Shown here: piece by piece, positions 1-39,449 of the stretch
Layout of the letters: every line of letters starts with the position of its first letter
Numbering within the stretch: the stretch's first letter is position 1
Assembly: GCF_032884065.1 (NCBI RefSeq)
Contig: NC_088868.1
Location: 11,470,335 to 11,534,334, forward strand
From: Artemia franciscana
Lineage: Eukaryota > Arthropoda > Branchiopoda > Anostraca > Artemiidae
Length of the DNA stretch: 64,000 nucleotides
Direction of reading: 5' to 3'
Position numbers and translations under genes: made by a program
Notes under the pieces: model-generated
What the model was told of the DNA's origin: nothing
The model's input: only the letters and a program-made list of their open reading frames with translations
Databases searched by the model: none

Positions 1-31
1 CCACAATTCTGCTTTTAAAACAATTAAAAGC

Positions 32-7396: not shown

Positions 7397-7536
7397 TCAG
7401 AAAGCACTATAGTCGACAGGCTGCATAACCATAAACTTCGCAATTTTTTCACAAACTTCAGGTGACAGTAACTCGTGAATTATCAGCAAAGCGAAGTTTA
7501 TCGCAGTTCCAGGTCCACGACTTGTAATTATTTTGC
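7397..7536 (-). CDS. DJ-1: DJ-1 coding exon 5 and stop
   Basis: Starts after a TTTCAG acceptor with KIITSRGPGTAINFALLIIH, the conserved DJ-1 C-terminal strand and helix, and ends VDYSAF followed by TGA at 7397-7399. The tail is slightly longer than in human DJ-1. The preceding intron, 7,537-12,143, is 4.6 kb. Confidence 0.95.
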
Positions 7537-13500: not shown

Positions 13501-16500
13501 GAACCTCTGAGCGTATTACTCAAGACAACCAGTAGGGTACTTCATTTTTAACCAACAATCTTTCCAAATTCGGCACTTTACTCCTTTTACTAAGTGTTTA
13601 GCCACCATCTTAATGTTTATTCTTTGCCATTCTCCAATACCTGACAACACTTTGTCGGTTTCCCCTTCCAGTGCTCATATTTTTATACTTGCAACTTCTC
13701 AAGAGAGAAAGAGAGATGGGGTTCATGGAAAGAAAATATTCCACTAATAGCTAAATTGGATGTTTATCAGGAAGTAAAATTTTTTTGTATTTACACTGCT
13801 ACATAAGCTGGGTTGAAGATAGTTTCTGAGCTAAGCTGACAGTTATTGTTAGCCCATGAAAATTGAACTACTACTTTAGAGCCATGGTAGTATAATATAA
13901 CATATTTAATTTCTTGAGGTTAACAATTGCTGTTTGTTCCAACAGCTTTTACTTACATAAAAAACTTAGATGAGAAATCTTGACAATCAAAATCAACATA
14001 AACCATAGACTTAACAATCAGGTTTCAATCAAAAGTGCCAGTCCAGAATTCTGTGATGCACTGCGTCCTGAAAATGACTGGTGAAAACAAGTAATTTTAG
14101 TTAATTAACCATCTTTGGCCCACCATTAGATGGTGATGTTGCGCATAATAGATAGATGATGCCAGTAACAAAAGTATTGAACTGACAACTCTAGCAAAGC
14201 AAACCCAGAAAAAAATTACTTTTTGGTGACAGACCTACCTCAATGGCAAATTTATCTAAGTTCAACCAACCTCAATAAATAACCAAACTCAATAAATGTA
14301 ACATACCTGACTCAGATTTTCAACCCCTTTGAGTCCTCCTGGTACAAGAATAACATCATACACAGCTTCATCATCAATATCATCCAATGATGCATCTGGA
14401 ACAATAATGACCCCACGACTACAAGTCACTGGATCCTTACCATGAAGGCTAGCAAGGGTCACATTTATCTGTTAAGGATAAATATAATTAGAATTCAGGG
14501 TTTTTTAAACTCTGCTGAAAGCAAATCAGGCAGAAGTTAATAAAAGGAGAGGGGAATCGTAAAGATATTCAAAAAAACAAGATTTTTATTTTGAGTAAAT
14601 AGAAAAAACAAGAGCTGTAAGATCTTTCATTTTATGTCTTGAAGATAGAAGCACCTATGATATGTACTTTCTTTAACCAAACTGTAAATTGATTAGCAGG
14701 GTTGCCATCTGCAGTGATGAAACGAAATATACTTCTTTGGAATTTCCTTTTCGTTTTTCTTTTATAGTCGCCTTTTCGCATTCTGTTCAGAGGGTTAAAC
14801 ATAACCGTTATAATATATTTTATTTCCGAGTCTGGTACCCTTTGTGCCTGTTCTATCAAAACTGTTATGACTCACCAAAATCTTTAGTAGAAGTGGTTGT
14901 AAGTTTTGTTTCTTTACGAAGTCTAAAAATAGCCAGATAAATTCTATGGCAGGCTAAAATGTGACCATAACATAGCTTTGGAATACTGCTATCAGAAAAT
15001 AACAAAACTATTTCATGATGAAATACCAGAAAGTGATATAAGATTCAGTAGAAAAGAAAATTTTAAAGTTAATATTTTTGTAATTATATGCAATTCTTTT
15101 TTTAGCAACATTAAAAAAAGATCTGAGGAATATAAAACTATTAAAAATAACTTTTCATGATAGTGATGTAAGTGACTCTTCAATAGAGAAATTAAAATGC
15201 TTTGAACAAGATTTAAACCTAGCAGAACTGAAAAATGAAGCATTACAGTATAACTCTTTTATAAGTAAAGCCAGTATCCATGTGGTCATTTCTTCAGGAA
15301 AATAATATTATTACAACATTCCCTAATTTAAACATAATTCAGATAATTTATTTAACCCTTACAATAAGCAACGCAAACGGTAAAAGATCATTCTCAGTAA
15401 TGGTCGAAATAAAAAAGAAAAAAATAGAGTCCACATTAGACTCTAATGTGGCTCAGTTCAATGACTGACTCTCGTTTTGGTTCTGAAAAGGACATGGCAT
15501 GATTAGTTTGTAGACATGTTCAAAGTAAAGCCATCTTGATAGTATTAGCAGGCTACTATAGACTAGCTTTAGAATTTGTGTCACAGCTTGAAATTCACTA
15601 TTGTATAGAGAGAAATAACAGGATTTCCAGAGTTCATATTTTGTTTTCTTTCATCTTCATTTCAAGTCATACTAAAGCATAGAGTCCACAAAAATAGTTC
15701 AAATGTCAGATAAGAAAAACTCCAGTGTTGGCGCAAACCCCAGGGCCAGAAGGTAGGCGCCAATAATGCAGTAGGTTTCAGACTTTTACAGTGAAAGAAG
15801 GAGGCAAACTCCAAACTTTTATTGTAGAGATTTTTGTTTGTTTCAAGTTAGATTTGCATATTCAATTTAAGTTTTACTCGTTTTAAGATCTATTAACTAT
15901 TTATATTAGTAGCTATTGTTTGTTTGTTTGCTAAGATTGTTTATTTTATTTCTGTTCGTTTTGGGTTTCATATATGCCTCAATAGCAAAATATTTTTTGT
16001 TCGTTTTAAGCTTGATTTGTATATTCAACTTAAGCTTTACTCGTTTTGAGATTTATTTATTCATTTATATTAGTAGCTGTTGCATGTTTTTTGCTATGAA
16101 TGTTTATTTAATTTCTGTTTGTTTTGGGTTTCATTTATTTTTCAATAGTAATTTCTGGTTGTTTTGAGTTTGATTTATTGTAGGTTTCTATTTCTTCATA
16201 TCTTAAGTTTAACATGACCTTTACTTTTCTTTAAAAAACTTCTTTTTCAGAAAGTGTTCTTTTTAAATTAACCATAATCAAGTGCTTGCTTTAGCTATAC
16301 ATATTCATCACTAAAATTCTTTGGACGAACTTATGTGATGGGTGCTGTATGTGACTTACAGGTTTTTATCATCTGACTGAATCCCTCCCACACTGAAGAC
16401 AGACAATCAGCATCTACATAGATAATTAAAACGAAATCCTTGTTACTGCATTTCCTTGATAGATTTTTCATATTAGACGGGAGCACAGATAGGAGTATTT

Positions 16501-19500
16501 ACAGCACTGTGAAGGGGAAATATTGTTAATGTTCCCTGACAGCCAACTCATGGGCCAGGACAGATAATCAAGAACTGTTTTTGTAGTTCAGGCAGGATAT
16601 TTTACTTTTACAGACTTTCTGAAGCTAGTATATGTTCTGAATAGCAACATGGTTTCAATTATTTAGAATACAAAAGGGTCGAGAACAATGGAATACCTAT
16701 CCTTTCTGAAATGTGAGGAATGATCCTAAGGAACACAGATATTTGACAGTAGGCGTATGTTATAGTGCCAAATATCCCCTTCAGTTGTGCTTAACAGCAG
16801 AATATGGTGGTAGAAACCTCCTGTAGCCATCCTGGGAGTGGCATGGCATCATAGTATTTGGAAAACATCCCAGTCTAGTCTCTATTCACGTTTTTACTAT
16901 TCCTTTACACTGCTGAAGAATTGACAAAGCAATTCAAGCATTTGGTGGTTTCTGTTTTGTCCAAAAGGACATTTCAAAGGACAGGGTTACAGTCTTGACA
17001 GTGCCATAACTATCAAAACCTTAAATCCACCATGAAAGACAAATTGTGATTTTATTTGCCCCTTGGTTTCCATTCTTCTACTCCCAAAAAAAGCAGCATC
17101 CATTCTTAGTCATATTCTTGTAATCTGTAAAACTATAGAAAGTATATTTTATAGTAAAACTCAATCAACAATCCCTCTCTGTGCAGTGTGCCAAGTACTT
17201 TTTCTAAATCAAAGTGAGGATCAACGTGACACTGGTCAGCCTCAGCACATTGGAGTCAGGCTTCCAAGTAGTGCCTGGTTGCTGTCTTCTCTATTATATA
17301 ATTTGTCTATGCCAACTTTTCAGTTTCTCTCATACTCTGATCAGACTGCACCGTTTCATGGAGAATACATTTATCCTTCTTTGGTGTGTGGATGCTGAAA
17401 TCAAACTCCTTGAGAAAGTTAATAAAGGTCTCCCAGAGAAAGATAGGCTTCTAAGTTTTTCTGTGGTGTTCAGCATAGAGCCTGAATAGGTTTGCTTATT
17501 TTTGAAATTTTGAGGCAGATACTTCTTTCTAGTAGAAGAATAGCAGTAATAGAATCCCAGAGCAAGTAAGTATCTTATCCACTTTCTTGGATGCTTATAG
17601 ACATCCCTTTTTATCTTATTCAGAGGGTTTGATTTCTTATCCATTCTCCAAGAAAATCCAAAATCGTTGTTCTTAGCTACATTTCTTGAAGAAACTCCAC
17701 AAGATCTAGGAATTGCACTAAAAATTTTTAGACAAACTTTCTTCTTATTTTCATCATCATACGAACATAACAAGGCACATAATATCTTACAGTGTCATTT
17801 CTTTTTGGTTCTGCTTTCAGAGTTTGCTCTGAAACAGGTTCGGAATGAGTGAGCACACAACCAGTCTTTTTATTGGATTTTATTGCCAAGCCCTATATAG
17901 TAAGAAAAGATCCCTTTTCCTTGTTTGTCTGAGAAGTTTTTGCAAAACTTACACCTTGGTTATTCTGAAAGACAAGGGTTTAGTCTGATTTTTCTTGCTT
18001 TAATTTTACTCAACCTTTCTGTCAGTTTTCTTTCATCTCTTTTCCTAACTCTAACAAGATTTTCTTTCCTTGTTTTATTTGTACACTTTCTTTAAGTGGA
18101 AGACATTCTTTGCTTTCTGATGCTCACATGGTCAGATGAAAAGCCTCTTTGTTGTCTGAGGCTTCCTCATCTGAGTTTTCATATCTGAACTGGTTATGTC
18201 TACTTCCTTGCTCTCTGAATCGAAGGCTTGATTTCAGGTACCCTTGCCAATTAAAACACTAGCTTCATGTAAATCAAAGTTTACTTCAGACAAATCTTCA
18301 GTTCATATCTCCCAGCTGAGGTGGCTTAGCTTCGTTGTTTTCAATGGAAATGTAGTCAGATCCTGAAGAACAGTGGCTCAAATCTCCAGAAATTATACAC
18401 ATAACTTACAAAACAATGTGTTAATTGGCATTAGAAATTCAGTAGGAACAATGACTATCTTATCTATGATTTTGCTGTTGTTGCTTCACTGCAAAAATTA
18501 TTTTCTTCTGGAGGCAATATATGCTGCAATTAAGAAGCTGCAAGATATGTGGTTTCTGCTCAACACCCTTGTATGGTAGTCCCAGATATGTTGTTTCCAC
18601 CATGTCTATATCTCCTGACATATGAATCGGAAGCAATCAAGATATGCACCATTCAACACAGAACTTTTTGGCAAATAGAACTGTGTTAAAAAGTGAAAAT
18701 CACAAATTTTACAAGATACGCAGTTTCCACTTGACACCAACGATATGACACTTCATGATGGCATTACTAGGTTATTTTTATAAAAGGAATTGGTCTAGAT
18801 ATAAAATTAGCCTTCAAATGAGCCCTTAAAAATCTCTCTATGATATTATAGTGTCCAGCTACCAGCAAAGAAAAAATGGACATCAGTGCAACCTATGCAA
18901 AAAGTGATTTTCCGTGTCTTAATCTTTAATCTTGATCTTAAGATCGTTTTTCTTAATTCCTGTAGCTTAGTTTTTGTTTAAATGTTACTATTAAGGATTA
19001 ACTGAAAAAGGAACCACTCCTGCATCAGGTAAAAATGGTATTAAAAGAAATGTTTTAGAACTTTTGGTTAATAAGGGCTGTGTTTTGCTCTTTACTAGGT
19101 TGCAGCCAATACTGCATCCATGGTACATTACAAGATGAAAAATAACAAAGAACCATATTAGAGTCAGCAAACATATTGCTGACTCTAGGAGGGAGCATGG
19201 GGCAAGCTAAGTCTGACAATTTCTGAAGTGATGATAGAGTTCTAGGAAACTAACTTTGATACTCCATCCTTAGGTAGCATAGGATTGGTGCATCTCAACA
19301 CGGCAAAGAGGTCTAAACATTGCTAAGCTTCATGCCAAGCAAAGTCATGGCTGATCTATTGCAGGGTGACCTTGAAGAGTGGCACCCTTCTAGGAAATTA
19401 TAGCCTAGTAAATGAGACAGCATTTACATTGGATTCTGATTAATGGATAATTCTTCAGGGTTTAGTTTATTTTGGGCTGCCTGTAGCAGCATAATATTTC

Positions 19501-22500
19501 TAGGAATTAACATGCAATGAGTTGGCAGTAATAGGCTTGAGGTTGTCTGTACAGGATTTCAACTCTTGTTGATAGAAGAGCATCACCAAGTGCTGAAAAC
19601 CATTTTGTGGCCCAAGATTGCATAAAGCCTCCATTCAACCGAGGTCCCAAAAACCTTTTACAATCTGGTTCTAAGCTGGCTTAGGCACTTCTGTGTAGAC
19701 TTGAGAAGATGTCTCAGGCCCCATTCTGCACTGGTTCTGGGACCATGGCTTTTCCTGTAGCCAAAAAAAAATTCAACGAATTAGAAAATATAAAAATTAA
19801 AACTTGGAATATTCCAATGTTAAAAAATGACATATCAACATTTTGACTGACAAATTCAAACACTTCAAACTGCAATTATTTAGAGTTCAGAAACTCATAT
19901 CCTAGGAATAGAAAACATGAAATTAGGTGATAGGGAATTTTTTACTCAGGCAGGAAGGATGAGGCAAATAGACAGGGAGTAGGGCTCATAATGAATAAAG
20001 AATCTGCTAAGTCTTGTTTAGGTTGGGAAGGTATTAATAATATAATGCAAGCTTCTTATTTTATGACTAAAAAAAATTATTTACAGCTGCAGGAACAAAT
20101 AGACAGGGTCCCAGGTAGAAATATGAAGAACTTATTGGGATATTTTAACACCAAGGCCAGTAGAAATGGAGATAAATGGTAGCCTAGGTAACCTTGAATG
20201 TACAGTTCTAGTCTAGGGACACAATGATCCACAATTTAATAACAAGCTTCAGATCGACATGAAAGTCATCAAGAGCTTCGTGAAACTAGATATCCTGAAC
20301 AGAAATGATGCTTTTGAGTTACCTCTTGAGCCCCAAAACTACAAAGATGTGAAAGATGTGTTGTGAGGTCCCAATACAGAAGCTTATCTGAATGAAGAAG
20401 GACCATCAGGGAAAACTGTTGAAGGAGTTTAGGCTGACGTGCTTGGGATTCTACATTGAACTGGCAAAGCAGATGAGAAAGCAGGTCAATCAAAAAGATA
20501 AGACGTTACAATCTCTCGAGTACTTACACCCGAAAATTGCCGCGAATGGAACTGTTGAAACGATTAGTCCTTTGATCAGCAGATTTAGCAGACTCCTGGG
20601 GAAAAGTCAGAGTGAGATAAAGTCTCCTAGAGACACTCTCAAAAACCAGTGGCTGAGCCTGCCAGATTTCAAAGAAGAAATGATCCTGAAGTCTGGTGGT
20701 GAAGAGCTAGTGTCCTCACCATCTTATTTTTGGAAGCTCTTGTTTGATGTGAAGAACCCAACAGCACCCCCAAATTCTTTGAAATATAAAACTTTTTGTT
20801 GAACTTATGCACGTTACCTCACTCACGTGCTGGTGGCAAAAGACAGTTTTCTCAACCAACAAACATTAAAACTATGTTGTGAAATCGGTTGGAAGTGAAA
20901 ACTGTCAATTCCCTCATCCATGCACCATATGTGAAATTCAACACAGTCTTTCCCTTATAAAGGTCTTTTCATGCTGTCTAGGCTCTTCTGTTCAATCCAT
21001 CTTGAGCCGCGAAGATGGCAAAGGCCTAGCACAAAATATTTCGGATTTGCTTAGACTTTTGTTGTGCACCATTCTGCTTTTGGTGGAAAGGATTGCGATT
21101 ATATAAGCCTTTCTATTGTCTTTTACAGAAGCCGTCAACCTCTTCTCAGAAGAAAGAGATTGGGCAGTGAGAAATGGATTTTCCTCAAAAAACCATAGCT
21201 ATGACACCAAAAAGCCCTTCTCTTTGGTTTTCTGTGCTTTTTCTTTTTTATTTCAACATTAAATTGAGCACATGTGATTTTTGTCTTGTCACTATTTGCA
21301 AAGAATTGACATTTCTTTTTTTTTGGAAGAATAAATTATCTTTACACAGAACAAATGATATTTGTCTTGTCATTATTTCTCTCCTTATCAAGTTTCATCT
21401 CCTAGTTAATTAATCCCATGAATACGTTAATGTTTGGATAAAATAACGATGTGGTTGTGTATTTTTGCAAGAGCAATGTTACCAAACGCGTTGGCAAAAG
21501 CCAGATGAAAAGGATGTGAAGCACGTTCAAAGCCAAGCACCTTTCACTCACTTTTTGATATCAGTCTGCAGGGAATGGTTGACAAACTTTTGCAGAAGAT
21601 CTGATATACTACTGAAGGAAAATAGGGGGCAAGGGCAATTAAGCCATGTAGGCAGCAACAGACATTGTATCTGTGATCTGCTGGTGCAAATCTTTTAAGC
21701 CCTGTCTTCATTATGGCATTTTCCAGCCAAAATGGCTGGGGTGGCTCATAGTGAAGACTGGTTTTATGGCCGTTTTTGTTTTCTCACTGTAAGAGTAGAC
21801 ATTTTGGCTGAAAACGTGAAAACTAAATAACACATTTTGTCATTCATCTTAGTTGTACTCCAACTTTTCTTTACATTCCTGTAACACTGCAAACACAGCA
21901 CAAATGACTCAAAATCTTCTGCAGTTATTATTATTTAAGAATTAACAAAGCTTCTTGACTACTAAGGTCTCAGCCCTGCAGTGCATTCCTTCAGCATGAT
22001 TTGACCTCTGGGTCCCGTATTACCAAGCTAAGGTCAAATCCACTGCACCACCACAGGACAAAAATCTTCTGCAGTTCATGAAATAAGACTGTGCTTTCAA
22101 ATTTTTTGCCAAAAACGACAAAAATGAAAACTGTCATCCAAAAAGTGGCAAAGCCAGTTCTGGTGCCAGAAAACGCCATAATAAAAACAAGGCTTTACTG
22201 AGTTTTTGGAAGAAGAATAACTAGTACAACCGAAGGTTCGAGAAAACCCGAGAAATTGTACTGGATTCTTTTTCTTCTTTGCATATTAGGTGATTTGGGG
22301 TTTTTCATGGGATTTTACTTATTTTAAGAACCACTTTGCTTTTACTTGAAGAAGAATAACGTAAATCTGGCCATGGTGTTGTGAGAAAGCCATTTAAAGC
22401 CTTTTTTATGTCAACTTTTAAAGTATATTGCCTAATTTTCTAGGGAGACACTAAAAGTGTCACGTTTTTGCTGAATTTGACACTTTAGTCCCAAAAGGTT

Positions 22501-23647
22501 TTGGCAACCCTACTCCTTCTCTCTCTAGAGGGCCCTGACCTTTGATGGCCTTTAAAAATATGTGTATTATAAAAGTGAAATCTTGCAAAATAGATCTTCT
22601 GCTTAATTGAAATACAATGAAATTGTTTTCAGCTTCATAACTTTGCTCAGTTCCATTTTATAAGGTTTTAAAGATATACAAATACATTTCCTAAGTTAAA
22701 AAAGAAAAAAACATTGATATGGCTCAAAATTCTACTCAAATAACAGGAATTACATTTTTGGAACTAAAGGCAGAGAAAAAGCAACTAGTAACTGAAAATT
22801 AAGGTAAAATGTTGTTTTGTCAAAATTTCAATAGGTATAGACTTGTCATGTAGGCAAATTTCAGGGCCCTCTAGAGGGAGAAGGAGTAGAGGTAGGTGCT
22901 TTAAAATACCTTCCCGGGACATACTTTAGCCTGTAGAACCATCCCTGAAAGTTTCATTTTCCTAACCTTAACCCTTTCCAAGATCGCAAGAAGTCAATTA
23001 ACTAGAATTTTACCAAAAAATTGAGGTAGGCCTATAATTTTTTTTGTTAAAATTCTAATGGGCTAGGTAGGCCAATAGACCTGTCAAGTATGCCAGGCAA
23101 ATTCATAAGACATAGAAATTAGCAGAGAGTTAACATGGTAACTTGGTAATACCTTCCTGGAGTATTTCTTGGCCTGTGTTTATTGCTGAAATTTTTATTT
23201 TAACTTAACCCCTTTCCAAGATAGTGAAATACACCCTGTCTAGAATTTTATCCCTAACTCTATATTATTACCCATTTTTCTCATTTATCAATAATGCCAA
23301 AAAGGGCACTTTGAAACAGTAATTGGTCCAAAAAGGACTTAATTTTCTTTTCTATAGAGAAATGTAGTACCTATGGGTAAATTATTACCACTAGATTTCT
23401 TATTCTATGCTCTTTCGACAGACAAAATTGCTTTTGTGACAATTTACAGGTAAATTTAACTGTTTTACACACAATAGGCCTACTAGTAGGCTAATTTTAG
23501 TTGTTCTTAATAATTTAGAAAAGATCTTCATTCAGTAAACTAAAAACAAGCTTTAATTACTTCAGCACGTCTAAGAGTATCCACAGAAGCTACTACTTCT
23601 GTTTCTTCTGAGCCTTCAGCAAGTAAAACGAGGCAAGTTTTGGCCAT
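7397..23647 (-). CDS. DJ-1: DJ-1/PARK7 orthologue, complete, five coding exons
   Basis: Small cytosolic DJ-1/PfpI-family protein, known in animals for protection against oxidative stress and for deglycase/chaperone-like activity. Coding exons run 23647-23561, 14468-14307, 13308-13239, 12266-12144 and 7536-7397 on the minus strand. All introns are GT...AG, and the phases (0,0,1,1) chain without a stop into 582 nt, or 193 residues; human DJ-1 has 189. Key residues are present: the nucleophile-elbow Cys in IIAAICAG, the acidic partner in AEGSEETE (Glu17, equivalent to human Glu18), the His in KKVTSHPS, and the TSRGPGT segment near the C terminus. The ATG is in a good context (AAAATGG). The odd features are the 9-kb first intron and the start exon sitting between two inverted transposon relics. 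The family call is very secure. Exon 1 is the least conserved part but fits in length, phase and motif. Confidence 0.95.
7960..8090 (-). repeat. Dispersed repeat end, shared with 19,030-19,150
   Basis: Reads on the minus strand GGGCTGTTGTTCGCTCTTTA then CTAGGTTGCAGC, with a 22-bp palindrome GGTTGCAGC-GCAA-GCTGCAACC. A diverged copy on the plus strand at 19,070-19,130 shares GCTCTTTACTAGGTTGCAGC. Probably an old transposon end; both copies lie in DJ-1 introns. Confidence 0.5.
8365..8830. repeat. Three-unit tandem repeat, about 155 bp per unit
   Basis: Units start near 8,365, 8,517 and 8,681 with 'TACCAGAAC-TCATAGA'-type starts and share 'GCTATTTCTCAT', 'AAGTGC-ATATGGCACTAAAA' and 'TTTTGGTGCCA...CTCAA'. 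Diverged about 25-30% by eye. In DJ-1 intron 4. Confidence 0.7.
8960..9900 (+). mobile_element. Dispersed repeat family, copy 3 (mosaic)
   Basis: 9,430-9,790 aligns to copies 1 and 2 (GTCACTTAAAAAGGGCACTA, CTTCTGGCAAAAT, AGATATGAGCTTGAAAC). The start at 8,960-9,080 is an inverted match to the family end also seen at 60-180. The middle, 9,090-9,420, is unrelated. The copy lies in DJ-1 intron 4 and lacks the 3' hairpin. Confidence 0.5.
9901..12143. other. DJ-1 intron 4, 5' part: diverged repeat ends, no gene seen
   Basis: 9,930-10,020 and 10,080-10,220 repeat the dispersed-family end motif (CTTACTTTCAGTTAAAAA on one strand, its inverse on the other). 10,680-12,070 contains C-homopolymers and old repeat-like sequence with short ORFs (such as 10,771-10,977 minus) that I cannot assign. 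Confidence 0.45.
12144..12266 (-). CDS. DJ-1: DJ-1 coding exon 4
   Basis: Phase 1 in and phase 1 out, 123 nt. The peptide PLCLMTHSIGLGKKVTSHPS contains the His (human His126 position) that lies next to the reactive Cys, followed by a VQDKLVAGGYQYSEQ segment matching the DJ-1 'HPLAKDKMMNGGHY' region. The acceptor is TTTTTAG and the donor GTGTGT. Confidence 0.95.
12267..13238. other. DJ-1 intron 3
   Basis: No gene or clear element. It has an A-run near 12,627-12,640 and a G+C-richer patch at 12,780-12,960 that may be an old repeat. Confidence 0.5.
13239..13308 (-). CDS. DJ-1: DJ-1 coding exon 3 (nucleophile elbow)
   Basis: 23 codons plus one base. The peptide SPKVARLLKNHEKRGSIIAA ends in ICAG, the DJ-1 nucleophile elbow with the reactive cysteine (human Cys106). 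The donor is CTG|GTGAGT and the acceptor follows a T-run. The Gly codon after ICA is split by the intron. Confidence 0.96.
13309..14306. other. DJ-1 intron 2
   Basis: About 1 kb of AT-rich sequence without recognisable coding or repeat structure. Confidence 0.5.
14307..14468 (-). CDS. DJ-1: DJ-1 coding exon 2
   Basis: 54 codons, phase 0 to 0, with acceptor TTAACAG and donor GTATGT. The peptide begins INVTLASLHGKDPVTCSRGV and continues through IIVPDASLDD to the conserved LVPGG turn and ENLSQ. It aligns without gaps to the DJ-1 region between strand 2 and the helix before the nucleophile elbow. Confidence 0.96.
14469..14969. other. DJ-1 intron 1, start
   Basis: Non-coding as far as I can see. 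It contains CAGGGTTGCC at about 14,698, which resembles a hAT terminus and precedes the hAT fragment at 14,970. Confidence 0.4.
14970..15470 (+). pseudogene. hAT transposase fragment, ZMYM1-like, C-terminal
   Basis: Two frames together carry the end of a hAT-type transposase. 14,978-15,160 reads RFSRKENFKVNIFVIICNSF then KKRSEEYKTIKNNFS. 15,280-15,468 reads TTFPNLNIIQIIYLTLTISN then ANGKRSFSVMVEIKKKKIES, the hAT dimerisation motif with the (A)N-G-RSFS signature. A frameshift and a gap separate them. The element lies in DJ-1 intron 1 on the opposite strand. A CAGGGTTGCC sequence at 14,698 could be its 5' end, but no partner end is visible. Confidence 0.7.
15851..16175. repeat. Two-unit tandem repeat, about 162 bp, of a dispersed family
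   Basis: Units start at 15,851 and about 16,012 and share 'ATTCAA-TTAAG-TTTACTCGTTTT', 'TTATATTAGTAGCT' and 'TTTCTGTT-GTTTTGGGTTTCAT'. An inverse match to the last motif occurs at 34,660-34,860 and a weaker one at 85-180. Confidence 0.7.
16176..17289. other. DJ-1 intron 1, probable decayed transposon body
   Basis: GC is higher than in the neighbouring AT-rich DNA and the region abuts the transposase-like fragment at 17.3 kb, so it may be the rest of that element. No frame is long enough to name. Confidence 0.35.
17290..18250 (-). pseudogene. Decayed transposase-like repeat, copy 1
   Basis: The minus-strand frame 17,773-17,330 (147 codons) contains CLKIFSAIPRSCGVSSRNVA then WRMDKKSNPLNKIKRDVYKH and CYSSTRKKYLPQNFKNK. 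The pattern (HTH-like block, basic K-N-I-K-x-D, then CYSSTRKKYL) recalls an uncharacterised DDE-type transposase family of arthropods and cnidarians. I cannot name it. Upstream minus-strand sequence to about 18,250 is rich in Lys/Glu codons but broken. It matches 31,198-31,830 closely, so it is a dispersed element, not a host gene. Confidence 0.5.
18251..20189. other. DJ-1 intron 1, repeat-like sequence without a recognisable gene
   Basis: 19,030-19,150 matches the repeat end at 7,960-8,090 (inverse). The remainder shows only short ORFs. 19,990-20,180 has a 63-codon plus-strand frame without known motifs just outside the left palindrome arm. Confidence 0.4.
20245..20925 (+). pseudogene. hAT transposase remnant, left copy
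   Basis: The longest open part, 20,392-20,802 (136 codons), runs from MKKDHQGKLLKEFRLTCLGF through LPDFKEEMILKSGGEELVSS to SYFWKLLFDV and then shifts frame. The shifted frame after 20,760 continues into the dimerisation region seen better in the right copy. The N-terminal DDE part is missing, and the C-terminal region is interrupted by the 465-bp deletion. Confidence 0.75.
21911..22077 (-). mobile_element. tRNA-derived SINE in left arm, with target-site duplications
   Basis: On the minus strand the unit begins TCCTGTGGTGGTGCAGTGGA (A-box-like), has CAGAGGTCAAATC (B-box-like) about 40 nt later, and ends in an AATAATAA tail. It is flanked by direct repeats of AAAATCTTCTGCAGTT at about 21,912-21,927 and 22,062-22,077. 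That is the structure of a short pol III retroposon. The exact tRNA source is unclear. Confidence 0.75.
22510..22889. mobile_element. 380-bp element with 29-bp inverted ends
   Basis: 22,510-22,538 (CTACTCCTTCTC...GGGCCCTGA) is repeated inversely at 22,861-22,889 with one mismatch. The arms contain the palindrome CTCTAGAG. There is no coding sequence. It abuts the hAT end of the left arm exactly, so the two elements share a junction. A MITE-like element is the simplest reading. Confidence 0.65.
22805..23275. repeat. Two diverged copies of a 235-bp unit
   Basis: 'AATAC-TTCC-GG-C/GATA-TT-GCCTGT' and 'TTAACC-TTTCCAAGAT-G-GAA' followed by 'CTAGAATTTTA-CC' occur at 22,905-23,015 and 23,140-23,255, preceded by matching 'GACCTGTCA-GTA-GCA-AATTTCA'-type sequence. 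They lie in the palindrome spacer, 3' of DJ-1 exon 1. Confidence 0.6.
23561..23647 (-). CDS. DJ-1: DJ-1 coding exon 1
   Basis: Encodes 29 residues from the start Met: the first beta strand followed by AEGSEETEVVASVDTLRRAE, the conserved DJ-1 N-terminal turn with the acidic residue that pairs with the catalytic Cys. The donor GTAATT is weak but in phase 0, and joins the INVTLASLHG start of exon 2 exactly where other DJ-1 proteins read RRAGI-x-VT. The exon lies in the 1.17-kb spacer of the hAT inverted repeat, and the transposon end starts only 34 bp upstream of the ATG. A separate 5' non-coding exon could exist further upstream but I cannot see one. Confidence 0.88.
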
Positions 23648-24109
23648 TTTGAATATTTTGCTAATTTTGTGGTTTTTCGTACAGGGTTGCCGAAATCTTT
23701 TGGGACTAAAGTGTCAAATTCAGCGAAAACGTGACACTTTTAGTGTCCCCCTAGAAAATTAGGCAATATACTTTAAAAGTTGACATAAAAAAGGCTTTAA
23801 ATGGCTTTCTCACAATGCCATGGCCAGATTTACCTTATTCTTTTTCAAGTAAAAGCAAAGCGGTTCTTAAAATAAGTAAAATCCCATGAAAAACCCCAAA
23901 TCGCCTAATACGCGAAGAAGAAAAAGAATCCAGTACAATTTCTCGGGTTTTCTCGAACCTTCGGTTGTACTAGTTATTCTTCTTCCGAAAACTCAGTAAA
24001 ACCTTATTTTTATTATGGCGTTTTCCGGCAACAGAACTGGCTTTGCCACTTTTTGGACGACAGTTTTCATTTTCGTCGTTTTTGGCAAAAAAATTGAAAG
24101 CACAGTCTT

Positions 24110-24295
24110 ATTTCATGAACTGCAGAAGATTTTTGTCCTGTGGTGGCGCTGTGGATTTGACCTTATCTTGGTGATACGGGACCCAGAGGTCGAATCATGC
24201 TGAAGGAATGCACTGCAGGGCCGACGCAGGGACCTTAGTAGTCAAGAAGCTTCGTTAATTCTTAAATAATAATAACTGCAGAAGATTTTGAATCA
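24110..24295 (+). mobile_element. tRNA-derived SINE in right arm
   Basis: Same unit as at 21,911-22,077, in mirror orientation: TCCTGTGGTGGCGCTGTGGA, then CCAGAGGTCGAATC (closer to a true B box), then an AATAATAA tail. It is flanked by AACTGCAGAAGATTTT at about 24,118 and 24,276. The insertion site is identical in both arms, so the SINE predates the duplication. Confidence 0.75.
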
Positions 24296-25663
24296 TTTGT
24301 GCTGCGTTTGCGGTGTTACAGGAACGTAAAGAAACGTTGGAGTACAACTAAGATGAATGACAAAATGTGTTATTTAGTTTTCACTTTTTCAGCCAAAATG
24401 TCTACTCTTACGGCAAGAAAACGAAAACGGCTATAAAACTTGTCTTCACTATGAGCCACCCCAGCCGTTTCGGCCGGAAAATGCCATAATGAAGACAAGG
24501 CTTAAAAGATTAGCACCAGCAGGTCACAGATACGATGTCTGTCGCTGCCTACACGGCTTAATTGCCCTTGCCCCCTATTTTCCTTCAGTAGCATATCAGA
24601 TCTTCTGCAAATGTTTGTCGACCATTCCCCGCAGACTGATATCGAAAAGTGAGTGAAAGGCGCTTGGCTTGGAACGTGCTTCACATCCTTTTCATCTGGC
24701 TTTCGCCAACTCGTTTGGTAACGTTGCTCTCGCAAAAATACACAACCACATCGTTATTTTATCCAAACATTAACGTATTCATGAGATCAATTAACTAGGA
24801 GATGAAACTTGATAAGGAGAGAAATAATGACAAGACAAAAATCATTTGTTCTGTGTAAAGCTAATTTATTCTTCCAAAAAAAAGAAATGTCAATTCTTTG
24901 CAAATAGTGACAAGACAAAAATCACATGTGCTCAATTTAATGTTGAAATAAAAAAGAAAAAGCACAGAAAACCAAAGAGAAGGGCTTTTTGGTGTCATAG
25001 CTATGGTTTTTCGAGGAAAATCCGTTTCTCACTGCCCAATCTCTTTCTTCTGAGAAGAGGTCGACGGCTTCTGTAAGAGACAATGGAAAGGCTTATATAA
25101 TCGCAATCCTTTCCACCAAAAGCAGAATGGTGCACAACAAATGTCTAAGCAAATCCGAAATATTTTGCGCTAGGCCTTTGCCATCTTCGCGGCTCAAGAT
25201 GGATTGAACGGAAAAACCTAGACAGCATGAAAAGGCCTTTATAAGGGAAAGACTGTGTTGGATTTCACATACGGTGCATTCCATGTTATGAAGGCTTATG
25301 AAAAGTAAGCAGATACATAATGAATCGGATTCCAATTCAGAAGCATTATACAGAGGTCCAGCCACATCCTGGGTTCAGAAACGACCATGTTTTTCAAGAA
25401 AGAAAGGAGAAAATTTCAAGAATGTGAGAGTATGAAGGGAAACTTTAATGCAGAATTCCTGCACAAGAAATATGTTTAAAGCTTCGGCTTTCATTTTTGA
25501 AAAAAAAAATCAATTTTTAGTGGTTAACCATTTTGGAGGAAAAAACTTCAGCTAATGCAATCCAATTTCAGTTATTTGTTTTTCTGATTGGTGAGTCAAA
25601 TAGTTCAGGTTCAGATTTATTCTCTTTTTGCTCATCCTTGTCGTCAGTCTCGCAGTACCACCT

Positions 25664-26420
25664 CTAAAAGTTGTTAAGTGATATTGGCGGAATCTGCCAC
25701 CGATCCACCGACGCAGCGCTACGAGTAACCATCCGCTTTACATGGATGAGTGAATCGACAGTTTTCACTTCCAACCGATTTCGCAACATAGTTTTAATGT
25801 TTGTTGGTTGAGAAAACTGTCTTTCGGCACCAGCACGTGAGTGAGGTAACGCGCATAAGTTCAACAAAAAGTTTGATAGTTCAAAGAATTTGGGGGTGCC
25901 GTCGGGTTCTTTACATCGAACAAGAGCTTCCAAAAATAAGATGGTGAGGACACTAGCTCTTCACCACCAGACTTCAGGATCATTTCTTCTTTGAAATCTG
26001 GCAGGCTCAGCCACTGGTTTTCGAGAGTGTCTCTAGCAGACTTTATCTCGCTCTGACTTTTCCCCAGGAGTTCGCTAAATCTGCTGATCAAAGGACTAAT
26101 CGTTTCAACAGTTCCATTCACGGCAACTTTCGGGTCTAAGTACTCGAGAGATTGTAACGTCTTATCTTTATGATTGACCCGCTTTCTCATCTGCTTCACC
26201 AGTTCAATGTAGAATCCCAAGCACGTCAGCCTAAACTCCTTCAACAGTTTTCCCTGATGGTCCTTTTTCATTCAGATAAGCTTCTGTATTGGGACCACAC
26301 AACACATATTTCACATCTTTGTAGTTTCGGGGCTCAAGAGGCAACTCAAAAGCATCATTTCTGTTCAGGATATCTAGTTTCACGAAGCTCTTGATGACTT
26401 TCATGTCAATCTGAAGCTTG
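25664..26420 (-). pseudogene. hAT transposase remnant, right copy with dimerisation domain
   Basis: 26,271-25,861 encodes the same 136-codon block as the left copy. An overlapping frame, 25,933-25,664, continues with KFFELSNFLLNLCALPHSRA, GAERQFSQPTNIKTMLRNRL and VDSLIHVKRMV, then stops. GAERQFS...RNRL is the hAT C-terminal dimerisation motif. The switch of frame near 25,925 is present in both copies, so both derive from an already broken gene. Confidence 0.8.
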
Positions 26421-26477
26421 TTATTAAAGTGTGGATCATTGTGTCCCCAGACTAGAACTGTACGTTCAAGGTATTTA

Positions 26478-27960
26478 CCTTACCAAGCAAAATGGCAGAT
26501 CACCAGACATTAGCCTTAAATTGACACTCAGTTTATCCCCAAAGGCTATTTATACAGTGCATAGTGATGTTTCCAGTTCACAAAAATTTGTTAAGGTAGT
26601 CCATAAGGACTATTATAATAAATTATTATATAAATTATGTGCCTTGAAGGTAGATTTAAACAATGGCACAAGAGTCAGAACTTGTCATAACGATTGTCAG
26701 AAAGACGAGAAAAATCAATGTTTCATTAGGCCAGCAATAACCACAAAAAAATACTGTTGATATGTCAGATTTTACAGCCGAACTAGCAGGCCTTCCTCAG
26801 CAAAATAAAAACCTCCCCTTTTCACATCTTCATGACAATGGTATAAAGAGGTCAATATAGAGTCCTTTCACATTTGAACTTCTTATGTTTAGGGGTGTCA
26901 GAGAATCACAACTGAGACACTGAGTAGTTACAGAATTACTTCAATCTGAAAAGCTGTCCTAACTGAAATAACTGTGTAAAAATTATACTAGAAAAAGGGT
27001 GACCACACCTTAGTTAACAACTAGGTTTATAGCTATAGAATCTACAATACTCATAGAATGAACATCTGGCCTATACCCTCATGTAGAGATGCATCAAAAT
27101 GTGAAATGAGGAAAAAACCCAAGTTGGTCAAGTTAGGATTGCCTTCAGCCAACCTGCTTGTTTACATGTCTGTGGTCGATTTAGACGCTTCATAACTTGT
27201 TTTGTGTGCGTAATCTTGGAAAGCTTGGTTGGTTTTAATAATAGTCTTCTGTTTCTTCTTTAAACAGGCCACCAGGTTACAGCATGTAAAGCGAAACATT
27301 TTTAACTGCCGTTCTTGCATCCTTTCATCACTTTAGGCAAAAAGCACATTTCGTTAGTTAGCACTTGGTACATTGGATGTGATGTTCGGTCTATGACAGT
27401 ATTACATGTTCTTGACAGCTACCAGAGAATTTTCTAGTGAGTTAGACTGTACCCATACGGGACAGGGTCCACCCTCTCAAATGCATGTGAACTTAAACTG
27501 CATATTTACTAAAAGCCTAATGTCTTAATTCAGGAAATCAACTTAGGTTCACCCTCGTCCAAAAAAATATTTAGCAGCAGCAAATCAGATCAGGATCATA
27601 TAGTTTGCTACTAACTACTATCCAGGCCGCACCTCTGCATACTCCTGTAGACTACAAGTCATAAAACAGCTTAAGCTTTTACTTACCAGCAGTCATATGC
27701 TTGCTTCAGTTTTTTATCAAATAAACTTTTTTCTAAACTCTCTTGAGCAAGTCACATGTTTCACCACGTTTGAATTTTCGTGCTTTTAAAAAGGAAAGTA
27801 GTGTGGATACGATAAAAAAAAAAATCCCTAAGACGAAAACGAACCTGAAAAGCACAAAACACAAATTAAAAGCAGTTGCAGTTAAGAAAAAACTGAAAAT
27901 AAATACATACGGTGTTGATTTTGAAAAAATGTCACAAAGTGTCCTTTTTTCCAAAAAGTT
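26478..27960. other. Upstream of DJ-1, no gene recognised
   Basis: Short ORFs only (such as 26,431-26,760 plus). No known domain. This is the interval where a DJ-1 promoter or 5' non-coding exon could lie if transcription reads through the right hAT arm. Confidence 0.4.
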
Positions 27961-28046
27961 TCCTTTTTTCACCCAATAGTGGCACGGTGTCACCCAGAGT
28001 GAAATAGTGTCAAAAAAGCACTAAAAGTGTCCCTTTGGCAACCCTG
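27961..28046. mobile_element. Possible solo hAT end
   Basis: Sequence rich in 'GTGTC' repeats (AAAAAGCACTAAAAGTGTCC) ending TTTGGCAACCCTG at 28,046. It resembles the 22,440-22,512 end in style (CACTAAAAGTGTC...GGCAACCCT). The rest of the element is not identifiable. Confidence 0.4.
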
Positions 28047-28267
28047 GTTTCGGATACACAGGGACAAGATGCACCATTTCCTGGAATTTAATGGATTTTC
28101 AATGGGGTTTTAGGGAATTTTAATGAAATTTTAAGGTCCCAAAAAAGCTAAAAAAGAAACATTTGTAGAAAAGCTTTTCATGGATTAGAGGATTTCTGGC
28201 ATGATTCTAAAAACAACCAGTAATAGAAGTTTTTTCAAATGGAAGCGAACTAACAAAACTTTTCATT

Positions 28268-28329
28268 CGGAATCGTTTAAAAGTATCCACATAGGCTACT
28301 ATTTCCGTCTCTTCTGATGCGAGGCTCCC
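28268..28329 (-). pseudogene. Decayed second copy of DJ-1 exon 1
   Basis: The minus strand reads SEETEIVAYVDTFKRF in one frame, against SEETEVVASVDTLRRA in the functional exon at 23,561-23,647. The nucleotide match is about 75-80% by eye over 52 bp and continues weakly into the 3' intron. The 5' part with the start Met is not recognisable and no donor GT is kept. It is most simply a decayed duplicate of the first exon. An alternative first exon is less likely because frame and start are lost. Confidence 0.65.
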
Positions 28330-30189
28330 ATGGCATTAATAAAGTTTTTCATGAAACTGTAAACTATAAAATTTGTCCCACTCACACAAGAGTTTTACCT
28401 TTTTACTTTGCAGCAATTTTTATTGCAAATAACTGAATCAATCAGAAGTGCAGCTGAGGAAATCATCATTTTTGACATTTTTTGTCTTTTAACAAGTAAT
28501 GCTTAGATTAAAATGTTTTTTGTCTAACCATTATTCTGTTACCAAGGAAAATATTTAAACCAGTGTACAATATTGTATATGTAAATACTTATTTGTTAGT
28601 AGTTTATTTAAAATTTTCTACGAGCCTTCTGCTGTTGGCTGAACTTTGCGGGCTTTCAAGTTTCTTCCCCTAAAAAGTCCCATAGGTTTGGACCCAAAAC
28701 GACCTAAATACAGCAATAATTCTCATTATCACACAGTTCGATAGAGATTTGACTTTCTTCTATATCAAATGTCATTTATCAACTTAGAACCTACCCTTCT
28801 CTTCTTCAAATAATGAATTTCGTCTTGACACCCTTAAGGTGCTATTTTTTCTAAAAAATTATAATGCAATGAAACAAACGCTTCTTCCTAGATGTTCTGA
28901 AGACGAGAATTTGGAGCATCACCCCCTTCCTCGGAAAATTCAGACCGGATATAAACTTTCCAATAGGTTAACGCATGAGTATCCCTCCTTCCCATCTTAT
29001 TCAAAAAACCCCTACCCCTTTACATCTGTCACAAAGGTTGGTATGAATTCTGACCCCCCCCCCTCATCTCACAGAAAACGAGGGTGCTGCAAAAGCAGTG
29101 CTGCATCGAGACATTTCTAAAAGCAAAACCAGTACACTAGCTTTCGCATTCAATAACCATAGATTGAGATCTGACAATCCTTTCTTGTAGATGTGCAAAT
29201 GACGAAATTCGGAAAAATCATCGTTTTCGCCCTCACTCGAATATAAGTTCAACTATAACAAGACTTAAGAAGTTCACTTCTTGTAGTTTTATATGCACGA
29301 GGAATTTAAGGACATACCCTCAGAATCGAAAATTCCAAAAAAACAAAAAAATTCCAAATTTCAGACTTCCAGGATTATTTCCTAGAAAGTAAACAAACGT
29401 GCATTATTTTTTAGCTCTGGCTACTAAGAGATAATTTTGTGTTCAGCATGCATCTGATATTGCATGATCCGAAAGAATTTTACTTTTAGAACTATGATAG
29501 TTCTGTTCCGCTCCCCATTTATCCTATTTGGTTGGCTTGAAAAAGTGTTTCCCTGGAAAATCACTAAAAATAGCTGACTTTACAATGTTTTGATTTCCTG
29601 AAACAGAAATCGAAGCGCATGAAAGATTAGTCAAAGAACGTCAAAGTCCAAGAGGGATTTGCTGGTTGCAAAAAAAAAAAAAAAAAAAAAAAAAACAAAA
29701 AAAAAACAGAAAACTACATAACAAATAGTTTTGATGAAAGGCACGTACATATCAGTAGATGTGAGCAATTCCTAACAAAAAGAGATGCACAAATAGGCCT
29801 ACTGCGCAATTTTACAGAAAATTACTCGTTGGATCACAATGATTTTGAGATAGCGAAGAAACACACCCACCGTTTCTTTTTTTTAGCATATTTTTCTTCT
29901 CCGCACATGAATCTTTTCATTCTTCGTTTTCTTTCGATCTTCATTTTCTTATCTCACTTGCAGAAATATTGAAAGTTCGAGGTGTTGACACCTACATTAT
30001 TCTCAGCAAATTCTGGATAATTAAGATCGCCGTTGCGCAAATAACTAGTCATTCACAAGAGCAAACCAGCCGAAAAAAATTTTTAAGTTATTCTCCACTC
30101 CTTAAAAATACGTCAAACAACACAACTCATGTTGAATTATGAAATTCGATCTGATTGATTGTCCATTACCAGACAATGGGTTGTTTTTT
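28330..30189. other. Intergenic, nothing recognised
   Basis: Contains an A-rich run at 29,670-29,707 and a C-run near 29,056. The ORFs at 28,839-29,120 (plus) and 29,064-29,252 (minus) overlap one another and show no family signature. Confidence 0.45.
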
Positions 30190-31139: not shown

Positions 31140-31880
31140 TTCCTCTTGCCGCTAAAGGTTGATACCCCGTTTGCCAGATTCTGCTACGTTACTTTGTGTA
31201 TTTGTCTATGCCAACTATTCAGTTTCTGTCATATTCTGATCAGACAGCACCATTTCACAGAGAACACATTTATCCTTCTTTGGTTTGTGGAAGCTGAAGC
31301 CAAATTCCATGAGAAAGTTAATAAAGGTCCCTCAAAGAGGTATATGCTTCTAAGTTTTTCTGCAGTGTTCAGCATACAGCCTGAACAGGTTTATTGTTTT
31401 TGAAATTACAAGGCAGATACTTCTTTCCTGCTGAAGAACAGCAGTACTGGAATCCCACAGCAAGTAAGTATCTTATCCACTTTCTTGGATGCTTATAAAC
31501 ATCCCTTTTTATCTTATTTAGAGGGTTTGACTTCTTATCCATTCTCCAAGAAAATCTAAAATCATTGTTCTTAGCTATATTTCTTGCAGAAAATCCCCAA
31601 TATCTAGGAATTGCCCTAAAAATTTTAGACAAACTTTCTTCTTATTTCCATCATCATAGAGATAAAATAGGGCACATAATATCTTACAGAGTCTTTTCTT
31701 TTTGGTTCTGCTTTCAGAGTTTCCTCTGAAACAGGTTCAGAATGAGTTAGCACACAACCAATCTTTTTTTGGATTTTATTGCTGAAACCCAAATAGTAAG
31801 AAAATGTTCTTTTTCCTTGTTCGTCTGAAAAGGCTGAAGATTGATACCCCGTTTGAAAGATTCTGTTACGTTACTTTTTT
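31140..31880 (-). pseudogene. Decayed transposase-like repeat, copy 2, between direct repeats
   Basis: 31,198-31,830 matches 17,295-17,950. The minus-strand frame 31,632-31,369 contains IFRAIPRYWGFSARNIAKNN and WRMDKKSNPLNKIKRDVYKH, nearly identical to copy 1. The segment is bracketed by two direct copies of TTGATACCCCGTTTG...AGATTCTG-TACGTTAC, at about 31,158-31,197 and 31,839-31,878. Confidence 0.55.
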
Positions 31881-33675
31881 TTACATCCTGCGGTTTCAAT
31901 GCGGATTTTTACATCCTGCGGTTCAATGCGGTTTTTTACATCCTGCGGTTTCAATGCGGTTTTTTACATGCTGCGGTTCAATGCGGTTTTTTACATCCTG
32001 CGGTTTCAATGCGGTTTTTTACATCCTGCGGTTTCAATGCGGTTTTTTACATCCTGCGGTTCAATGCGGTTTTTTACATCCTGCGGTTTCAATGCGGTTT
32101 TTTACATCCTGCGGTTCAATGCGGTTTTTTACATCCTGCGGTTCAATGCGGTTTTTTACATCCTGCGGTTCAATGCGGTTTTTTACATCCTGCGGTTTCA
32201 ATGCGGTTTTTTACATCCTGCGGTTCAATGCGGTTTTTTACATCCTGCGGTTTCAATGCGGTTTTTTACATCCTGCGGTTTCAATGCGGTTTTTTACATC
32301 CTGCGGTTCAATGCGGTTTTTTTACATCCTGCGGTTTCAATACGGTTTTTTACATCCTGCGGTTCAATGCGGTTTTTTACATCCTGCAGTTTCAATGCGG
32401 TTTTTTACATCCTGCGGTTTCAATGCGGTTTTTTACATCCTGCGGTTCAATGCGGTTTTTTACATCCTGAGGTTTTTTACATCCTGCGGTTTCAATGCGG
32501 TTTTTTACATCCTGCGGTTTCAATGCGGTTTTTTACATCCTGCAGTTCAATGCGGTTTTTTACATCCTGCGGTTTCAATGCGGTTTTTTACATCCTGCGG
32601 TTCAATGCGGTTTTTTACATCCTGCAGTTTCAATGCGGTTTTTTACATCCTGCGGTTTCAAAGTGGTTTTTTACATCCTGCGGTTCAATGCGGTTTTTTA
32701 CATCCTGCGGTTTCAATGCTGATTTTTACATCCTGCGGTTCAATGCGGTTTTTTACATCCTGCGGTTTCAATGCGGTTTTTTACATCCTGCGGTTCAATG
32801 CGGTTTTTTACATCCTGCGGTTTCAATGCGGTTTTTTACATCCTGCGGTTTCAATGCGGTTTTTTACATCCTGCGGTTTCAATGCGGGTTTTTACATCCT
32901 GCGGTTCAATGCGGTTTTTTACATCCTGCGGTTCAATGCGGTTTTTTACATCCTGCGGTTTCAATGCGGTTTTTTACATCCTGTGGTTTCAATGCGGTTT
33001 TTTACATCCTGCGGTTCAATGCGGTTTTTTACATCCTGCGGTTTCAATGCGGTTTTTTACATCCTGCGGTTCAATGCGGTTTTTTACATCCTGCGGTTTC
33101 AATGCGGTTTTTTACATCCTGCGGTTTCAATGCGGTTTTTTTACATCCTGCGGTTTCAATGCGGTTTTTTACATCCTGCGGTTCAATGCGGTTTTTTACA
33201 TCCTGCGGTTCAATGCGGTTTTTTACATCCTGCGGTTTCAATGCGGTTTTTTACATCCTGCGGTTCAATGCGGTTTTTTACATCCTGCGGTTTCAATGCG
33301 GTTTTTTACATCCTGCGGTTCAATGCGGTTTTTTACATCCTGCGGTTTCAATGCGGATTTTTACATCCTGCGGTTCAATGCGGTTTTTTACATCCTGCGG
33401 TTTCAATGCGGTTTTTTACATCCTGCGGTTCAATGCGGTTTTTTACATCCTGCGGTTTCAATGCGGTTTTTTACATCCTGCGGTTCAATGCGGTTTTTTA
33501 CATCCTGCGGTTTTTTACATCCTGCGGTTTCAATGCGGTTTTTTACATCCTGCGGTTTCAATGCGGTTTTTTACATCCTGCGGTTCAATGCGGTTTTTTA
33601 CATCCTGCGGTTTCAATGCGGTTTTTACATCCTGCGGTTCAATGCGGTTTTTTACATCCTGCGGTTCAATGCGGT
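31878..33675. repeat. Minisatellite of 27/28-bp units, about 65 copies
   Basis: The unit is TTTTTTACATCCTGCGGT plus TCAATGCGG (27 bp) or TTCAATGCGG (28 bp), with point variants (CTGCAG, CTGAGG, TGTGG, 5- or 7-T starts). The two lengths are interleaved. All three plus-strand frames are stop-free over long spans (longest 31,804-33,693, 629 codons), because no phase of the unit contains a stop. Repeated 'FLHPAVQCG', 'FFTSCGSMR' and 'FYILRFNAV' peptides result. I do not consider it a gene: there is no non-repeat domain, and frame changes with every 28-bp unit. Confidence 0.95.
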
Positions 33676-33945
33676 TACAACGCAAGAGGATAAATTTGCT
33701 ATCAATCGACAGCTGAGATTCTTTTTTAATCATATACTAAATTTTTCAATTCTTTTCTGCTTTTTAAATACTTTTTTTAAATTTGTTGTGCATATTTAGA
33801 CAGAAAAAATAACAACAATTTATTTATGAAGATCGCAATAGTTAGCGATGGCGCATATTAAAGCATGTTGGTCCTTCAAACAGCTAACGCTACTTTAAAA
33901 TATTCACTAAATAAAAACATATATAAAAGAAGTACAAAAATGAAT

Positions 33946-33951
33946 TTTATT
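33946..33951 (-). promoter_or_regulatory. Candidate poly(A) signal of Set1
   Basis: An AATAAA on the minus strand 69 nt past the Set1 stop and about 270 bp before the 27/28-bp minisatellite begins (reading along the minus strand). The distance is reasonable for a short 3' UTR. Confidence 0.5.
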
Positions 33952-34019
33952 ACTCTTGACATTTTTCAAATAAAAAAGATCAGCATAGCTAAAAAATTAG
34001 AGAAACAATTTAAACTGGC

Positions 34020-34193
34020 CTAATTTAAAGTACCACGACAATTAGGTGCACCACAGAGACATCTAATCTTATTTTCTTCATAAGGAAACTTATAATCATA
34101 CGTTATTTCTTCATTAACTGCAATCTGCTGTTTAGAATATATCACAATCTTCTTTTGGTTGTCAATTGTAATAATACGGGCGTAACAATTAGG
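34020..34193 (-). CDS. Set1: Set1 terminal exon: SET end and post-SET
   Basis: 57 codons and TAG (34020-34022). The peptide begins [20 protein letters not shown], includes [11 protein letters not shown] (the catalytic-site Tyr strand) and ends [13 protein letters not shown], the post-SET CxCx4C zinc motif. It completes the pseudoknot begun in the previous exon. Confidence 0.98.
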
Positions 34194-37047: not shown

Positions 37048-37104
<57 letters not shown>

Positions 37105-39166: not shown

Positions 39167-39226
<60 letters not shown>

Positions 39227-39378
39227 ATATTCACAGGTGGGACACAGGGACACAACTACAATGGCGCGTAACTATTATGGCGCGTAACGACTTACGCGCG
39301 CGGGGGGGCTTGGGGGGGGCGCGAAGCGCCCCCACCAACTAGGTGTTGGGGTGGCGCGAAGCGCCACCCCAACAGCTA

Positions 39379-39449
<71 letters not shown>

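Follow-up and report, generated by a model that had tools for sequence, protein, structure and literature searches.

Where does transcription of a gene start when the end of a transposon lies 34 bp upstream of its start codon? This question is raised by a DJ-1 gene of Artemia franciscana in a 64,000-nucleotide stretch of contig NC_088868.1 (positions 11,470,335 to 11,534,334; assembly GCF_032884065.1). This whole stretch is called the window below, and positions are counted from its first letter. Exon 1 of DJ-1 sits there in a 1,171-bp spacer separating two inverted copies of a hAT transposon, a truncated left copy (L) in intron 1 and a right copy (R) beside the start codon. The evidence described here shows R to be a complete insertion and supports a displacement of the old flank of the gene. 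It also makes it rather probable that transcripts begin either at the edge of R facing the gene or within the 34 bp, the hAT end being promoter-proximal DNA and 5′ untranslated region (UTR).

The window carries a complete DJ-1 gene on the minus strand, with five exons, introns that are all GT-AG and an open reading frame (ORF) of 193 amino acids. Its coding sequence (CDS) is arranged as follows.

23,561-23,647, minus strand: coding exon 1, 29 amino acids (MAKTCLVLLAEGSEETEVVASVDTLRRAE), with a GT donor; identical in the second haplotype
14,307-14,468, minus strand: exon 2
13,239-13,308, minus strand: exon 3, containing the AAICAG cysteine
12,144-12,266, minus strand: exon 4, with the sole CDS difference between haplotypes, which is synonymous
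7,397-7,536, minus strand: exon 5 and stop

The protein scored 193 bits with the family model TIGR01383 (curated cut-off, 131.25) and matched DJ-1 structures at E 3.3e-58; with the intact ORF and the AICAGP cysteine motif in place, it belongs to the DJ-1 family. A six-frame protein search of the genome gave 11 DJ-1 matches, ten of which were the five exons in each of two haplotypes, and no second complete DJ-1 gene was found beyond these haplotypes. The eleventh match was an isolated copy of exon 5, near which the remaining exons were unmatched. This copy lies outside the window, on the opposite strand and ca. 0.25 Mb away (C6:11,222,453-11,222,596), and equals the gene's own exon 5 in protein match quality.

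Upstream of exon 1, the hAT terminus CAGGGTTGCC at 23,682 is reached 34 bp from the ATG. The far end of the same element is GGCAACCCTG at 28,037-28,046.

23,648-23,681, minus strand: gap between the ATG and the hAT end, 34 bp, no haplotype differences
23,682-28,046, minus strand: right hAT element R, complete at 4,365 bp, with CAGGGTTGCC at both ends
23,674-23,681: near imperfect 8-bp flanking repeat of R, TTTTCGTA
28,047-28,054: far imperfect 8-bp flanking repeat of R, GTTTCGGA, agreeing with the near copy at 6 of 8 positions
25,667-26,479, minus strand: broken transposase remnant in R, reading towards DJ-1

Assignment of R to the hAT superfamily is based on the short terminal inverted repeats (CAGGGTTGCC at either end), on the dimerisation domain of its transposase remnant (PF05699 Dimer_Tnp_hAT on 25,667-25,960; E 6.6e-7, 29.5 bits, cut-off 21.4) and, at the level of the family, on 8-bp target-site duplications, which are perfect (8/8) at two copies elsewhere in the genome, L031 (gtagtcgt) and L032 (accagaac). 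Counting both strands, the window has just three occurrences of the subterminal 13-mer GACACTTTTAGTG, close to the ends of L and R. No unbroken transposase gene was found in R: the frame is broken, by changes that are common to L and R as judged by eye, no N-terminal domain was matched among the pieces scanned, and none of the seven open stretches in the far third of R had a transposase match in Pfam. The remnant reads towards DJ-1, so the transposon borders the gene with its 3′ end.

The 8-bp flanks of R are weak evidence by themselves because 0.96% of the 8-mers in the window match equally well, and they were rejected as sole proof of its ends; their 6/8 agreement also falls below the 7-of-8 rule that appears in the available text of PMC8721813. 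The extent of R was given by its relatives. When the far 747 bp of R was used as a genome query, 252 first-look candidate places were obtained, and all 40 that were scored stop at query position 745-747, which is the transposon end. Among 12 longer copies fetched from the genome, five (L029-L033) span R almost completely and seven correspond to parts of it. Two of the five run unbroken from position 12 to 4,365; the remaining three reach from 1 to 4,365 and are split into two or three pieces, with gaps of at most 198 bp. L033, with a 7/8 duplication, is probably the same insertion as L032. L029 and L030 are one insertion seen twice: their far flank is the same, 11 bases are missing from the start of the near end, and they show no duplication. 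By the patterns searched, no relatives were found in the viral contig and genome contig collections. An end of R at 26,472, like that of L, was rejected since all five near-complete copies run continuously across that point. Judged from sequence, the two ends and the full-length relatives show R to be a complete insertion, although an empty site was not seen; the old 5′ flank of DJ-1 would, with R complete, now lie beyond 28,054.

The left copy faces R across the spacer, and a small element has entered it.

20,191-22,512, plus strand: left hAT copy L, in DJ-1 intron 1, inverted relative to R and cut off at 20,191
22,511-22,888: small element inserted at the inner end of L; inverted arms of 35 nt (91%), TA duplication judged by eye

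The inverted arms pair 20,920-22,511 with 25,279-23,683 (94.7% over 1,598 columns) and 20,191-20,922 with 26,472-25,741 (95.5% over 732 columns), both at a BLAST E of 0; a 461-bp deletion in L at 20,919/20,920 is present in the window haplotype only. The frame-0 stretches contain five in-frame stops in L and none in R, and when three of the L stops were masked in both copies, PF05699 scored 15.0 bits in L and 22.1 bits in R. A first-pass annotation of the window had placed exon 1 in a 1.17-kb spacer between inverted hAT copies, with a hAT terminus starting 34 bp upstream of the ATG; the coordinates, the GT donor, the arms and the 34-bp distance all hold exactly. Its description of the right copy as a relic ending at 26,477 does not, as the element is complete at 4,365 bp and 26,477 is only where the truncated L stops matching. 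The palindrome that it saw enclosing exon 1 has real inverted arms, and its unity was overstated, the arms being better read as two insertions of one family.

Exon 1 was found twice on one scaffold in the genome search. A 100-N gap at C6:11,468,120-11,468,219, left of the window, joins two contigs whose ends overlap by ca. 49 kb: the final 48.9 kb ahead of the gap match the start of the contig that follows, at about 97-99% where long stretches align; the match is still running where contig 1 stops at the gap, and the first base of contig 2 is already within it. These overlapping ends are probably two unmerged haplotypes, that is, an unpurged assembly duplication; a true tandem duplication is much the less likely reading. 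Both copies carry L, R, the same 8-mers flanking R and a decayed exon-1 fragment described below. Differences were counted over four aligned matching stretches, excluding positions 1-1,353, 14,549-15,485, 31,861-39,379 and all beyond 48,421, and the haplotypes differ at about 1% of non-CpG sites. The CDS showed one difference, a synonymous one, in 582 sites against 5.7 expected at the locus average (P = 0.023), which shows, modestly, that the coding sequence stayed under selection. The presence of R in both haplotypes together with the near-identical CDS indicates that the insertion is not a fresh private lesion. Separately, 937 bp of intron 1 near exon 2 (14,549-15,485), holding CAGGGTTGCC at 14,697, are absent from the second haplotype; this is a haplotype-specific insertion or deletion.

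A comparison of CpG loss in L and R provided the main evidence on where transcription may start. A change-point test delimited one domain.

13,574-23,566: CpG-poor domain covering most of intron 1

The CpG fraction is 0.055 in this domain against 0.137 at 8,009-13,571 and 0.213 at 23,568-26,180, and the best single change point in the tested range (8,000-31,800) is 23,568, inside exon 1. The 3′ part of the gene (8,009-13,571) is without CpG depletion of the intron-1 kind. Between L and R, 110 differences were counted in 2,320 columns: 52 were CpG in R lost in L (51 of them transitions), only five were CpG in L lost in R (two transitions), and 53 were of neither kind. The observed/expected CpG ratio is 0.82 in R and 0.69-0.83 in five copies elsewhere, against 0.37 and 0.29 for L in the two haplotypes.

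We then counted the changes that arose since the haplotype split in the stretch shared by L and R; these numbered 19 CpG and 14 other changes in L against 3 and 15 in R (Fisher P = 0.007). For these polarised counts, columns with a gap in L, L′, R or R′, or with fewer than two outgroup letters, were set aside, and 6 unpolarised sites, 6 complex sites and 109 changes common to all four were left out; L032 and L033, probably one insertion, both voted in the outgroup and L030 did not. Over its full length R had 8 CpG and 49 other changes (P = 3e-5 versus L), with 101 unpolarised sites set aside. The unpolarised differences at CpG sites, 15/74 in L and 11/198 in R up to 26,472, pointed the same way (P = 0.0007). 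An age difference as the whole cause of the contrast is answered by these changes since the split; some age difference is possible, the L stem being longer at non-CpG sites (21 vs 11, P = 0.11). The low CpG of far R (0.39) was rejected as a sign of methylation: five other copies have it too (0.37-0.45), which makes it a trait of the family, and with 2 CpG and 23 other polarised changes this part of R is not methylated-looking. As further CpG tests, four other repeat pairs, short or distant, gave small and mixed counts. The two members of a repeat pair at 17,301-17,936 and 31,200-31,832 (87.7% identity) are both nearly CpG-free.

Since the changes in L are CpG-heavy and those in R are not, L looks germline-methylated and R does not, and the natural reading is that intron 1, with L in it, carries germline methylation of the kind found in transcribed gene bodies. 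According to the available text of PMC8857917, methylation in invertebrates is concentrated on gene bodies and usually spares promoters. CpG decay in the gene body and not at the promoter side was found here, indirectly, through mutation. In Nematostella, the part of PMC13345969 available describes that when gene bodies lose their methylation, transposons inside genes, DNA transposons in particular, become open and transcripts start from them.

Based on these results, the history of the locus may be described as follows. A complete hAT transposon entered the flank of the only complete DJ-1 gene found, 34 bp from its ATG, and pushed the old 5′ flank 4.4 kb away to its present place beyond 28,054. 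A second copy of the same family lies decayed in intron 1. The coding sequence was kept under selection. Most likely, transcripts now begin within the final few hundred bases of the transposon or within the 34-bp gap, which would make the transposon end the promoter-proximal DNA of DJ-1 and probably most of its 5′ UTR. The CpG contrast between L and R favours such a start over a promoter beyond 28 kb, without proving it. A more specific proposal, which we regard as possible and somewhat short of likely, is that the sole DJ-1 gene now uses the 3′ end of the hAT element as its working promoter and 5′ UTR, and that an edge of germline gene-body methylation runs between L, silenced, and R, open as a promoter, only 1.2 kb apart.

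The hAT end was searched for splice acceptors, scored with a simple weight matrix, by which the four real DJ-1 acceptors score -1.1 to 5.9.

23,750-23,768, minus strand: acceptor-like site in the hAT end, TATTGCCTAATTTTCTAG/G, first exonic base 23,750, score 3.5

This is the best acceptor-like site within 120 nt of the ATG; further up, a site at 23,904 scores 4.6, and the sole AG within the 34-bp gap scores -8.2. The nearest ATG upstream of the DJ-1 start is 139 nt away. Rfam searches at gathering scores and tRNA scans gave no matches.

These sites matter most for the possibility that the old promoter is still active beyond 28,054 and that a non-coding first exon is spliced across R through a near-end acceptor (23,750 or 23,904), leaving R in a 5′ intron. 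The scores of both sites lie within the range of the four real acceptors, human PARK7 has a non-coding first exon, and the CpG fraction just past R (28,047-28,600, 6/75) is indistinguishable from that of the spacer (P = 0.50). Such a long transcript would cross R, which lacks the methylation-type decay seen in L 1.2 kb away and which carries three AATAAA signals on the DJ-1 strand (25,621, 24,870 and 24,014); moreover, acceptor-like sites scoring at least 2 are common on that strand, at 5.7 per kb. We thus consider a displaced but active promoter unlikely. Still less probable is that the insertion crippled DJ-1, leaving a weakly expressed or dying locus. The ATG was indeed cut off from its old flank, whereas both haplotypes, ca. 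1% apart at non-CpG sites and with one synonymous site in the CDS, carry the insertion, the splice sites are all intact, no other complete DJ-1 gene was found, and the methylation-type decay of intron 1 speaks for germline transcription, past or present. The least probable of the alternatives, a very improbable one in our judgement, concerns the arrangement itself, namely that the palindrome arose in one event as an inverted duplication or as a single composite element enclosing exon 1. Its arms are 95% alike, oppositely oriented and 1.17 kb apart, and in maize inversions can arise by alternative transposition between hAT ends, as far as the accessible text of PMC8225341 goes. Against a single event, R has two ends of its own with imperfect 8-bp flanking repeats, and the similarity of L and R on the inner side stops at the transposon end. 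Because R matches L029, which sits at an unrelated site, just as closely (95.7%) as it matches L (95.2%), two separate insertions of one family are the simplest reading.

Several observations weigh against a start of transcription in the hAT end or the 34 bp. The only TATA-like motif, TATATTGC at -123, is weak; a stable stem of -27.5 kcal/mol (102 nt plus 19 nt of exon 1) would lie in the hAT-derived 5′ UTR; and the end adjacent to DJ-1 is the transposon 3′ end, not the one expected to bear its promoter. The part of R at 23,648-24,681 is not unusually conserved, with 4 non-CpG haplotype differences in 948 sites (rank 16% of 363 windows), a comparison of little power, and a conserved promoter island in R is not supported by the haplotype differences. 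In unpolarised counts, far R (5/46, 10.9%) is no different from the CpG-poor domain outside L (13,574-20,190; 7/70, 10.0%). Methylation here is deduced from the mutation pattern, and an unmethylated R would also be expected with a longer transcript whose first 5 kb lacked methylation. In cnidarians, transposons, young ones above all, can themselves be methylation targets, according to the same partial text of PMC8857917. For the first-pass annotation this means that its displaced upstream region is supported by R being a complete insertion, and that its claim that any promoter or 5′ UTR must lie in or be spliced across transposon sequence holds generally, except where these fit into the 34 bp. 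The takeover of a transposon-borne promoter, which it offered as one outcome, is plausible and favoured by the CpG contrast, yet unproven given the lack of a conserved island, the weak TATA-like hexamer and the adjoining 3′ end.

Beyond the far end of R, traces of an older event were found.

28,248-28,317, minus strand: decayed second DJ-1 exon-1 fragment, including ca. 20 bp of intron-like sequence
28,336-28,600: old dispersed repeat just upstream of the fragment; the query ended at 28,600

The local score of the fragment is 53, whereas 300 shuffles gave at most 31 and the best other place in the window 36. By eye, the fragment has neither an in-frame ATG nor a donor. By coordinate arithmetic, it lay ca. 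0.33 kb upstream of exon 1 before R inserted. The insertion of R was thus probably preceded by a duplication of exon 1 and the loss of one of the two copies. When the flank of the fragment was compared with the joined flank upstream of exon 1, no homology was found (score 11.8 against a null median of 13.7). The repeat starting at about 28,336 is 72-80% identical to 38 other scored places. Elsewhere in the window, a CpG-rich 28-bp tandem array at 31,877-33,676 (observed/expected about 1.4-1.5) has one frame open for ca. 635 codons, clearly repeat-borne, and further arrays occupy 53,669-54,214 (145-bp unit) and 51,815-52,039 (23-bp unit).

The locus combines a widely conserved gene, of which one complete copy was found, with a transposon that replaced all but 34 bp of its 5′ flank while the CDS was kept. 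The two close copies flanking exon 1, each in two haplotypes, amount to a controlled test of gene-body methylation against promoter protection, and it is this matched pair that makes the locus useful. Should cap sites prove to lie in the hAT end, DJ-1 would be a clear-cut example of a conserved gene whose promoter has been replaced. In the literature on PARK7, transposable elements, promoters and invertebrates, no such case was found in the portions of the papers available.

Compared with known systems, this DJ-1 resembles other DJ-1/PARK7 proteins in its length of 193 amino acids, its AICAGP cysteine motif and its strong structure match, and differs in having a 9.1-kb intron 1 with transposon copies and the ATG in the first recognisable exon. 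The element shares with the hAT superfamily (PF05699) the CAGGGTTGCC ends, the subterminal GACACTTTTAGTG, the 8-bp duplications at two other copies, the C-terminal dimerisation domain and a presence in many copies, whereas the flanks of R itself agree at 6/8 and its transposase is broken. In the available texts of PMC13345969 and PMC8857917, invertebrate gene-body methylation goes with silent intragenic transposons; here the intronic copy is CpG-decayed while the upstream copy and five copies elsewhere are undecayed, a pattern deduced from mutation at one locus.

That a transposon lies at the 5′ end of a gene is nothing new in kind. As with the transposon-derived promoters and 5′ UTRs of other host genes, a transposon end here adjoins the 5′ end of a gene that is intact and constrained, and it lies outside the part of the gene body that has decayed at CpG. 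The difference is that the transposon meets the gene with its 3′ end.

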